Shown: positions 15,196 through 18,679 of the stretch, in pieces
Layout of the letters: every line of letters starts with the position of its first letter
How positions within the stretch are numbered: the stretch's first letter is position 1
Origin: Sphingobacteriales bacterium
Lineage (GTDB): Bacteria > Bacteroidota > Bacteroidia > Chitinophagales > JADJOU01
Assembly: GCA_021297855.1 (NCBI GenBank)
Contig: JAJTHM010000008.1
Location: 1 to 38,617 of the forward strand
Reading direction: 5' to 3'
Length of the DNA: 38,617 nucleotides
Notes under the pieces: generated by a model
Seen by the model: the letters and a program-made list of their open reading frames with translations, nothing else
What the model was told of the DNA's origin: nothing
Database searches by the model: none
Made by a program: the position numbers and the translations under genes

Positions 15196-16098
15196 ATGGA
15201 GTATCACAAAAGTGTTCTTTTAAATGAATCTGTCGAGGCACTTAATTTAAAGTCCGATGGTGTCTATGTCGATATGACTTATGGCGGCGGCGGTCACTCC
15301 AAACTTATTCTGAGTAGTTTGGGACCAAAGGGCAGGCTTTATGCTTTTGATCAGGACGAAAGTGCATTTCAAAATAAACTAGAGGATGAACGTTTGATTT
15401 TAATTCATCAAAATTTTGAACACGCATTTGATTATTTGACTGCCATAGGAGTGGAAGAAGTGGATGGAGTCTTGGCTGATCTAGGGGTTTCATCGTTTCA
15501 GTTAAATGATGATGCCAGTGGTTTTAGCTACAGACCAAATATAGATCTTGATATGCGAATGGATAAATCTATGACCACTTCGGCTAAGGATATTTTGAAT
15601 AGTTATTCAGAAGAAGCCCTTCAAACTATTTTTCAACGATACGGGGAAGTGAGAAATGCGAAAACATTAGCTCAGCGTATCGTAGAAGTCAGACAAGGGA
15701 AGAAGTTTCACTACAGTGACGATTTGAATGATGTCCTGCGAGGAATACAATTTGGAATATTTGAAACCTATGCTGCACCTATTTATCAAGCACTGCGCAT
15801 GGAAGTCAATCAAGAATTGCAAGTGTTGGAAAGAATGCTCACGACAATTGTAGAACTTATCAAAGTGGGCGGGAGACTATCGGTGATAACGTTTCATTCA
15901 TTGGAAGATAGAACGGTTAAGAATTTTATGAAGTATGGTGAATTTAATGATGAACCTACGACAGATATTTTTGGAAAGAGAAAATCATGGAACTGGAAGT
16001 TATTGAATAAAAAGCCGATAGGACCATCAGAGGAAGAAATCAAAAAGAACTCGCGAAGCAGAAGTGCCAAGTTAAGGGTGATGGAGAGAGTGGGATGA
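15196..16098 (+). CDS. rsmH: 16S rRNA m4C1402 methyltransferase
   Basis: A 300-residue protein (MraW/RsmH) that methylates N4 of a cytosine in the ribosomal P site. It starts YHKSVLLNESVEAL, has the SAM motif VDMTYGGGGHSKLIL (25-39), LADLGVSSFQLND (93-105), and the C-terminal VITFHSLEDRTVKNFMK and RSAKLRVMERV. Length is standard. It sits second in the cluster as usual and is cotranscribed with mraZ (4-bp gap). A 165-bp repeat-bearing gap follows. Confidence 0.97.
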   Translation: MEYHKSVLLNESVEALNLKSDGVYVDMTYGGGGHSKLILSSLGPKGRLYAFDQDESAFQNKLEDERLILIHQNFEHAFDYLTAIGVEEVDGVLADLGVSSFQLNDDASGFSYRPNIDLDMRMDKSMTTSAKDILNSYSEEALQTIFQRYGEVRNAKTLAQRIVEVRQGKKFHYSDDLNDVLRGIQFGIFETYAAPIYQALRMEVNQELQVLERMLTTIVELIKVGGRLSVITFHSLEDRTVKNFMKYGEFNDEPTTDIFGKRKSWNWKLLNKKPIGPSEEEIKKNSRSRSAKLRVMERVG

Positions 16099-16129
16099 TA
16101 ATGTGAGGATGTGATGATGTGATGATTGA

Positions 16130-16244
16130 ATTTGAAAATTAGTCAATTTGTCCCGATAGCTATCGGGATTGATAATGTGATGATAGGTCGATGCGAAGGT
16201 ATAAGAATGAAGCATCCAAGCTTTGCGTCTCTGCGGTAATAAAA
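16130..16244 (+). repeat. Composite intergenic repeat, copy in the rsmH-ftsL gap
   Basis: Preceded by GATGTGATGATGTGATGAT tracts, it has ATTTGAAAAT, CAATTTGT, the palindrome TCCCGATAGCTATCGGGA (16151-16168), GATTGATAATG, and CTTTGCGTCTCTGCGGTAAT (16221-16240). The same order of parts is found at 24199-24307, though with substitutions and length differences. Confidence 0.65.
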
Positions 16245-16263: not shown

Positions 16264-16602
16264 ATGGCAAACACTGAGAAAAATTTAAATTTAGAAGAAC
16301 TAGTTCAAAAGGTATTTGAAAAAATATCAAAGAATATTCAATTCCTATTTTTCTGCTTTCTGCTCTGTATGATTTATATATGGAATAGTCATATGGCACA
16401 AAATTTAGTTAGAGATATTAATAAAAAAGCAAAGGAGTTGAAGGAGTTGAGATGGGATTATCTGACGATAAAGTCAGATTTGATGTATGAGAGTAAATTG
16501 ACAGAGGTATTGCCTAGAGCTCAGGCACTGGGTTTGGAAGAGTTGAATATGCCGCCATATAAGTTGACTGTAAAAAAGAAAGAATATCAACGACAAGATT
16601 AA
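16264..16602 (+). CDS. FtsL-like divisome protein
   Basis: A 112-residue bitopic protein with a cytoplasmic N-terminus of about 25 residues, one membrane helix (IQFLFFCFLLCMIYIW, about 26-41) and a periplasmic coiled-coil (NKKAKELKELRWDYLTIKSD) before a short tail. The position between rsmH and ftsI, the size and the helix-plus-coil layout identify the FtsL slot of Bacteroidota clusters; sequence identity to classical FtsL is low in this phylum. It should complex with FtsQ and FtsI in septal synthesis. The stop codon (16600-16602) touches the apparent start of ftsI. Confidence 0.8.
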   Translation: MANTEKNLNLEELVQKVFEKISKNIQFLFFCFLLCMIYIWNSHMAQNLVRDINKKAKELKELRWDYLTIKSDLMYESKLTEVLPRAQALGLEELNMPPYKLTVKKKEYQRQD

Positions 16603-18679
16603 TTTAATAGGTCGAGCCTATTTCGTATTTGCTGTACTCTTCATTCTAGGGTGTGTCTTTATATACAAGATAGTAGATCTTCAGACTGCACATGACGGAT
16701 ACTGGAGAAAGCTCGGTGATGATTTAACCTTATTTCAAGTAAAGATAGAGGCTGAACGTGGAAATATTTTTACGGAAGACTCGCGTATTTTAGCCACTAC
16801 TATACCAACGTTTGAGCTTCGAATGGATACCAAAGCAGATGGATTAACCGATACATTATGGAGAAAACATATCGATAGTCTTGCTCTATTATTATCGTAT
16901 AATTTGCCAGAGAAGTCTCCTCAAGCATGGAGGTCATACCTAGTCGATGCACGTGAAAACAAAGCAAGACACCTCCTTCTAGCAAAAAATATCCAGTTTC
17001 AGGATTTCAAAAAAATTCGGGAAATTCCTCTTTTCAAATTGGGGAAGAATAAGTCTGGATTTATAACGATTCAGAGCAATACACGCAAGCTACCTTTTGG
17101 GGAGCTAGCTAAGCGCTCCATAGGCTATGTGTCTTCGAATGGCAAAACGCTTATAGGAATTGAAGGTATGCTCAATGAAGAATTGTCTGGTGAAAACAGA
17201 GAAGTGTTGATGCAGAAAGTAGCAGGTGGGGTTTATATGCCTGTGAATGATAATAGTGAATTTGGTTCTAAGCCCGGATTGGATGTCTATACAACCATCG
17301 ATGTTAATTTGCAGGATATTACGGAATCTTCCTTGTACAGATCCGTTTCGTATTATAAGGCAGAACACGGAAGTGCTATTTTGATGAATGTGAAAACAGG
17401 AGAAATAAAAGCGATAGCAAATATTGGCAAGACCAAAGATGGACAATACAAAGAGATTAAAAATTATGCTATCAATGAATTGAATGAACCTGGATCGGTA
17501 ATGAAGTTGGCTTCTGTAATGGCCTTATTAGATGAAGGCTACTGCGATGAAAATACACTAATTGATTTAGAAAATGGCGAATGTAAATACTATGATTTGA
17601 CCTTGAAGGATGACCATAAAGTTTCAGGGCAAGTGACTTTAGCCAAGGCTTTGGAGTTATCATCCAATGTTGGAATTTCCAAACCTGTATACAAACATTT
17701 CCATAAGAATAAAGATGAATTTTATGAAAAGTTGGAACAATTTCATTTGACAAAATCATATGGTCTAGGAATAAAGGGTGAATCAGAGCCTGATTTAAAA
17801 CCTGTCAAGGAATGGTCAGGAGTGACGCTCCCATGGTTGTCTATAGGTTATGAAATTAGAATGACGCCGCTTCAAGTACTCGGACTATATGCTGCTGTAG
17901 CAAATAACGGCAAGTTGATGCAGCCCTATATTGTCAAAGAGATCAGAGACAATGATAAGATTGTTGAAAAATTTGAACCTGTGGTTTTAAACAAGCAAAT
18001 TGCAAAACCATCTACTATAGCGGCTGTTCGAAAGATGCTAGAAGGAGTTGTAGATTCAGGTACTGCCAGTAATATTCGAAATCAGTATTATAAAATCGCG
18101 GGTAAAACAGGAACAAATTTATTGGCAGAAGGAAGTCGGGGATTTAAAGATAAAAAGTATCAAGCGAGTTTTGTTGGCTATTTCCCAGCTCAAAATCCAG
18201 TTTATGCATGCATCGTAGTCGTTAATAAACCCGATGTCAATATTGGATACTATGGCAGCGGGGTAGCGGCTCCTGTTTTCAAAGACATCGCAGATAGATT
18301 ATACTCGACCGATGAGGCGATTCACCCAGCATTGGCTATTAAAAAAGATAATTTATTCCTCAGCACATTCAAAGGTTTAAAATCGGAAGTCGATAGAATC
18401 GCAGATTATTTTGATTGGGATATTTTATCCAATGATATCAATTCTGATATGGTGACGGCCATATCATCCAAGAATAAAATAGTAGTCAAACCGAATTATT
18501 ATTCTTCAAAATCGGTCATGCCCAATGTAGTTCAACTCAATGTGCGAGATGCGGTATATCTACTAGAGTCTATGGGTTTGAGAGTAAAAGTAGAAGGCAA
18601 AGGTAAAGTGAAAAATCAATCTATCCTACCTGGCGAGCGGATATGGAAGGGAGTTGAAGTAAAAATTTCTTTAGGATAA
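16598..18679 (+). CDS. ftsI: Penicillin-binding protein 3, septal transpeptidase FtsI
   Basis: This D,D-transpeptidase cross-links septal peptidoglycan. The open frame begins after a TAA at 16571-16573. It covers a membrane anchor (YFVFAVLFILGCVFIYKIV), then ERGNIF and ATTIPTFELRMD of the dimerisation domain. Counting from ATT 16598 (693 residues), the catalytic SVMK starts at Ser300, SSN is at 355-357, KTGT at 503-506, and a PASTA domain covers the last 60. There is no ATG, GTG, TTG or CTG between the stop and ATG 16823, which lies after the anchor; translation from 16823 would lose it. The proposed start is ATT at 16598, overlapping the ftsL stop by one base; ATA 16607 and ATC 16586 are alternatives. 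Confidence 0.9.
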   Translation: MNLIGRAYFVFAVLFILGCVFIYKIVDLQTAHDGYWRKLGDDLTLFQVKIEAERGNIFTEDSRILATTIPTFELRMDTKADGLTDTLWRKHIDSLALLLSYNLPEKSPQAWRSYLVDARENKARHLLLAKNIQFQDFKKIREIPLFKLGKNKSGFITIQSNTRKLPFGELAKRSIGYVSSNGKTLIGIEGMLNEELSGENREVLMQKVAGGVYMPVNDNSEFGSKPGLDVYTTIDVNLQDITESSLYRSVSYYKAEHGSAILMNVKTGEIKAIANIGKTKDGQYKEIKNYAINELNEPGSVMKLASVMALLDEGYCDENTLIDLENGECKYYDLTLKDDHKVSGQVTLAKALELSSNVGISKPVYKHFHKNKDEFYEKLEQFHLTKSYGLGIKGESEPDLKPVKEWSGVTLPWLSIGYEIRMTPLQVLGLYAAVANNGKLMQPYIVKEIRDNDKIVEKFEPVVLNKQIAKPSTIAAVRKMLEGVVDSGTASNIRNQYYKIAGKTGTNLLAEGSRGFKDKKYQASFVGYFPAQNPVYACIVVVNKPDVNIGYYGSGVAAPVFKDIADRLYSTDEAIHPALAIKKDNLFLSTFKGLKSEVDRIADYFDWDILSNDINSDMVTAISSKNKIVVKPNYYSSKSVMPNVVQLNVRDAVYLLESMGLRVKVEGKGKVKNQSILPGERIWKGVEVKISLG

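Follow-up and report, generated by a model that had tools for sequence, protein, structure and literature searches.

The ftsI gene in this window (the whole stretch of 38,617 nucleotides that was analysed) most likely begins at an ATC codon, positions 16586 to 16588, judging from comparison with its relatives. We consider it very probable that ftsI is translated from this AUC by the ordinary initiator tRNA, following an ancestral change of ATG to ATC, and that ribosomes translating ftsL probably assist. Few known start codons are as rare or as weak as ATC. The position of the start, its conservation, the overlap with ftsL, the start context and the purifying selection on the N-terminus were determined by comparison, and from them we infer AUC initiation, coupling and a low output. 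The compared family comprises six genomes: five species of one genus of uncultured Bacteroidota known from metagenome assemblies, namely the genome under study (G000) and G001 to G004, of which G004 is the most divergent, and one genome of a sister genus (G005). The features of the locus are as follows.

16264 to 16602, plus strand: ftsL (Bacteroidota FtsL_2; Pfam PF19579, E 3.8e-29), directly 5′ of ftsI and overlapping it.
16566 to 16585, plus strand: A-rich upstream context GACTGTAAAAAAGAAAGAAT, lacking a Shine-Dalgarno core and carrying A at −3 and −6 (position matrix).
16571 to 16573, plus strand: in-frame TAA four codons 5′ of the ATC, present in 5/5 genus members.
16586 to 18679, plus strand: ftsI from its inferred start, a class B penicillin-binding protein with Transpeptidase, PBP_dimer and PASTA domains (Pfam PF00905, PF03717, PF03793).
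16586 to 16588, plus strand: ATC, the inferred ftsI start codon (genus, sister-genus and order comparison).
16586 to 16602, plus strand: ftsL/ftsI overlap, 17 nt long in every genus member (5/5) and in the sister genus.
16598 to 16600, plus strand: ATT, an earlier start candidate, rejected (ACT in G004 and G005; context at the 10th percentile).
16619 to 16675, plus strand: FtsI membrane anchor YFVFAVLFILGCVFIYKIV, residues 12 to 30 counted from the ATC (Kyte-Doolittle maximum 2.45).
16823 to 16825, plus strand: ATG, the first in-frame canonical start, past the anchor and implausible as a start (context at the 1st percentile).

The gene lies in an mra/fts cluster in the order mraZ (14727), mraW (15196), ftsL (16264), ftsI, murE (18692) and mraY (20174), where the mraY label was taken from the gene's own sequence and its place in the cluster. 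This neighbourhood, together with the N-terminal anchor and the dimerisation and transpeptidase domains, places the product among the FtsI/class B penicillin-binding proteins, and long matches to it were found in nearly all of 99 genomes. The gap between mraW and ftsL (window 16097–16240) contains TGATGATGTGATGATT-type repeats and a perfect palindrome, CCCGATAGCTATCGGG, at 16152; the palindrome recurs at window 10951, and the sampled 317 kb of the genome contain one further copy.

The ftsI frame is open from 16574, the codon after the in-frame TAA, to the stop ending at 18679. Between that TAA and the ATG at 16823, none of its codons is ATG, GTG, TTG or CTG, while the anchor and the ERGNIF segment are both encoded 5′ of this ATG. 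Weak initiation could occur in this stretch only at the ATC at 16586, the ATT at 16598, the ATA at 16607 and seven more ATT or ATA codons inside or after the anchor. A sequence-only reading had reported that ftsI lacks a canonical start before its anchor, and had listed these first three codons as candidates, with the ATT overlapping the ftsL stop (ATTAA); both the observation and the coordinates hold, and the four relatives from the same genus likewise lack a canonical start 5′ of the FtsI anchor. The same reading cautioned that a sequencing error or a frameshift had to be excluded. A sequencing or assembly error that removed a normal start could be imagined in a draft genome of 134 contigs, but the same ATC is present in four other assemblies, two of which match separate public MAG records (JAURJQ010000013.1 and CANESS010000004.1). 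The relatives refute such an error, whose probability we consider practically negligible. The missing canonical start is real and not a sequencing slip, because all five known species keep the ATC.

Comparison with the closest relatives, the check that had been proposed, also locates the start. Codon column 5 of the alignment, corresponding to window 16586, is occupied by ATC in all five species of the genus (5/5), and the sister genus has ATG there. In about 90 additional genomes of the order, the canonical ftsI start coincides with this column or lies only a few codons away; ATG predominates, GTG accounts for a sizeable minority and TTG for a few. The column lies nine codons 5′ of a conserved Arg. 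GTG or TTG is used in roughly one quarter of these genomes outside the genus, which hints that ftsI may often be weakly initiated in the order. The start cannot lie further 5′, since the in-frame TAA is kept throughout the genus, and column 5 holds the only NTG or AUH codon common to all five species between this TAA and the anchor. No NTG codon intervenes between the upstream stop and the first essential domain, and one and the same AUH codon recurs across the species. Elsewhere in ftsI, Ile positions seldom retain a single codon across the genus: of the 38 columns that are Ile in four species, only 11 do so, with one being ATC throughout, and of the 10 conserved in five species none is ATC throughout.

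The segment preceding the ATG at 16823 behaves as coding sequence. Across codons 11–83, from the ftsL stop to this ATG, dN is 0.04–0.14 between members of the two main clades and 0.33–0.37 in comparisons to G004, whose FtsI is 66% identical over its N-terminal third and whose FtsL is 55% identical. Between the clades, pS is 0.63–0.92, with synonymous sites near saturation, and dN/dS is 0.03–0.10 in the codons before the ATG where dS is defined. By this measure, the FtsI N-terminal segment is under strong purifying selection. The low dN at high pS indicates that the segment is translated and that its sequence had time to change, while the ATC was kept. Part of this conservation may derive from dual coding and not from the start itself, because the C of the ATC is the first base of a Gln codon in ftsL and a T there would make a TAA. 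The overlap encodes the FtsL tail YQRQD, which is invariant within the genus, and the ftsL stop is conserved in 5/5 members. Within the genus, the start codon of ftsL varies: at the aligned place it is ATG in G000 (16264), GTG in G002 and G003, and TTG in G001.

We scored start contexts with a position matrix built from 162 unambiguous ATG starts of the genus. The ATC at 16586 scores 3.13, the 68th percentile of real starts, a value reached by only 2.4% of interior in-frame positions. The ATT at 16598 scores −0.89 (10th percentile) and the ATG at 16823 scores −5.04 (1st percentile). The A residues at −3 and −6 of the ATC are kept in all five species, and A at these positions is a positive determinant in F. 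johnsoniae (PMC6847099). There is no stable RNA structure at the ftsI start (z 0.91), and the 20 nucleotides upstream contain no GGAGG-like core, nor an extended Shine-Dalgarno sequence of the S. aureus type; a missing Shine-Dalgarno sequence is expected for Bacteroidota (PMC6847099).

The other candidate codons were rejected. The ATT at 16598, which the sequence-only reading had favoured, would be an infC-like AUU whose one-base overlap with the ftsL stop is favourable for reinitiation, and it is present in 4/5 genus members. However, G004 and the sister genus carry ACT in its place, its context is poor, and it lies four codons 3′ of the conserved start column. Consequently, the idea of a rare AUH start stands, but by homology the codon is the ATC at 16586, and a start at the ATT is very improbable. 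The ATA at 16607 is GTA or GTT in three species and was rejected, as was the ATG at 16823, which lies past the anchor, has a 1st-percentile context and is preceded by codons of low dN/dS.

Alternatively, FtsI could be produced as an FtsL-FtsI fusion, through +1 ribosomal frameshifting or transcript slippage on a run of A residues in ftsL. Both frames are open together from 16574 to 16602, and a run of six A residues (GTAAAAAAG) lies just 5′ of and at the start of this shared stretch. The run is broken in G004 (AAAACAAAAGG), however, so that the slippery site is not conserved, whereas the ftsL stop is conserved in all five species; a fusion also leaves unexplained why the column is a start codon in the outgroups. 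The proteins of the FtsL family are oriented with the N-terminus inside and the C-terminus outside, and this FtsL has a single hydrophobic segment. In a fusion, the chain would therefore reach the FtsI anchor from the outside and the catalytic domain would end up in the cytoplasm, an arrangement incompatible with the membrane topology. With neither a conserved slippery site nor a compatible topology, a programmed ribosomal frameshift fusion is very improbable.

How exceptional the ftsI start is within the genome was gauged by a coding-potential scan of a sample of 317 kb of G000 and 400 kb of G002, containing 443 coding ORFs. In this sample, ftsI is the only intact gene away from contig edges whose first canonical start is preceded by a long stretch of strong coding potential, here 81 codons; the other top entries are contig-edge fragments, repeats or a frameshifted gene. 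No other convincing gene with an AUH start was found among the 443 ORFs, and infC begins with TTG, not an AUH codon, at a fixed position in 5/5 species, which argues against a genome-wide relaxation of start choice. The next internal candidate, G000:C1:1550 (L102:1300-3988), is an 813-codon frame whose first canonical start comes late. Its G002 counterpart is intact, with 867 codons and an N-terminus containing HHNSLHAF; relative to it, part of the missing N-terminus lies in another G000 frame, and the candidate was rejected as a frameshifted gene.

An altered initiator tRNA was likewise rejected, since the initiator tRNA has a normal CAT anticodon stem-loop in the four genus genomes G001 to G004. 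The 99.97%-complete G000 draft yielded no initiator tRNA carrying the usual TCGGGCTCATAACCCG stem-loop, most likely due to an assembly gap. In the CAT tRNA of G000 at L083, the anticodon stem is unusual (TCGGA/CCCGG).

The mechanism that we propose for AUC initiation would begin in the ancestor of the genus, where a conserved ATG at this column probably became ATC, with the Glu codon GAA of the overlapping ftsL frame becoming the Gln codon CAA; the ATC has been kept in every known descendant. The fMet-tRNA, with its CAU anticodon, would read AUC with a mismatch at the third codon base. A Kozak-like context, rich in A and free of stable structure, would help initiation in this phylum, which is not dependent on Shine-Dalgarno pairing. 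Ribosomes coming from ftsL would probably help as well, the ftsL stop codon TAA (16600–16602) beginning 14 nt 3′ of the first base of the ATC. Under this scheme, little FtsI would be made, and its synthesis would depend on the translation of ftsL. The 17-nt overlap occurs in 6/6 family members and falls within the spacing considered for coupling (stop and start overlapping, or no more than about 20 nt apart). Post-termination ribosomes can reach starts located behind the stop, as in phage fr with a spacing of −38 nt (PMC12548453). Against coupling, this overlap is longer than the short −4/−1 overlaps for which coupling is best documented (PMC10666635).

IF3 rejects weak pairs at the third codon base (PMC10158994), and start codons mismatched at that base initiate weakly and are sensitive to IF3 (PMC10158994; PMC13009471), so that a lowered FtsI output is expected. 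As an indication of scale, AUU in E. coli yields about 0.3% of the output of AUG, according to Hecht et al. as quoted in PMC10666635. That the rare start sets the dose of FtsI relative to FtsL, as the sequence-only reading suggested, is a hypothesis. In the strongest form of this proposal, AUC would be a selected device whereby FtsI is made efficiently only by ribosomes delivered from ftsL, with an output tuned by initiation-factor stringency; we regard this as rather unlikely. Alternatively, the ATC is used but functionally neutral: coupling makes the codon matter little, the FtsL Gln hinders reversion, and no regulation is involved. Reversion to ATG would change the FtsL Gln to Glu, ATT would truncate FtsL, and the YQRQD tail stays constant even as FtsL falls to 55% identity. 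Yet reversion requires a single base change that is seen in none of the five species, and the sister genus combines an FtsL Glu with an ATG start, so that the constraint from FtsL looks mild. We give the neutral account a little under even credence, and weight toleration with hindered reversion above a selected regulatory device.

Known AUH starts share individual features with ftsI. In infC, which encodes IF3, the start is AUU in E. coli and AUA in S. aureus, and the initiator tRNA likewise meets a third-base mismatch. However, infC is regulated through IF3 itself, whereas FtsI takes no part in initiation; the S. aureus infC site also carries an extended Shine-Dalgarno sequence, while the phylum of this ftsI does not rely on such sequences. 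The pcnB gene of E. coli, known here from a title cited in PMC13009471 (Binns and Masters 2002), also encodes an enzyme, and an inefficient AUH start limits its expression, though the codon is AUU and the gene and phylum differ. The AUA of ccpN and the AUU of cvfC1 in Staphylococcus/Bacillus are, like the ATC of ftsI, conserved across species (PMC13009471). They were shown to lower output, to about 10% of AUG in S. aureus and up to 30% for ccpN (PMC13009471), and are compensated by an extended Shine-Dalgarno sequence, whereas ftsI has an A-rich context and a 17-nt overlap with the upstream gene. For L12ae of Staphylothermus marinus, an ATC start was also proposed because an essential gene lacked a canonical start; it rested on alignment for a single archaeal genome, its conservation not being tested in PMC2678158, while the ftsI ATC recurs in five species. 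Switches from AUG to AUH were nearly absent among 61,358 ancestral AUG starts surveyed (PMC5622118). The ftsI case differs from infC, pcnB, ccpN and cvfC1 in its AUC codon, its lack of a Shine-Dalgarno sequence, its septal transpeptidase gene and its overlap with an upstream gene. In the literature searched, we found no report of an ftsI with an AUH start, an absence that is no proof of novelty, and none treating the ftsI/ftsL start codon together with translational coupling.

There is also a practical caution: gene callers that accept only ATG, GTG and TTG would begin this ftsI at 16823 and omit the membrane anchor. If AUC were a selected device, the amount of the septal transpeptidase would be tied to FtsL as well as to the state of the translation machinery, with no Shine-Dalgarno pairing to rescue weak starts. 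An AUC start in an essential division gene, kept genus-wide while synonymous sites approach saturation and without a Shine-Dalgarno sequence, would be a natural setting in which to ask whether coupling to the gene upstream relaxes start-codon stringency.
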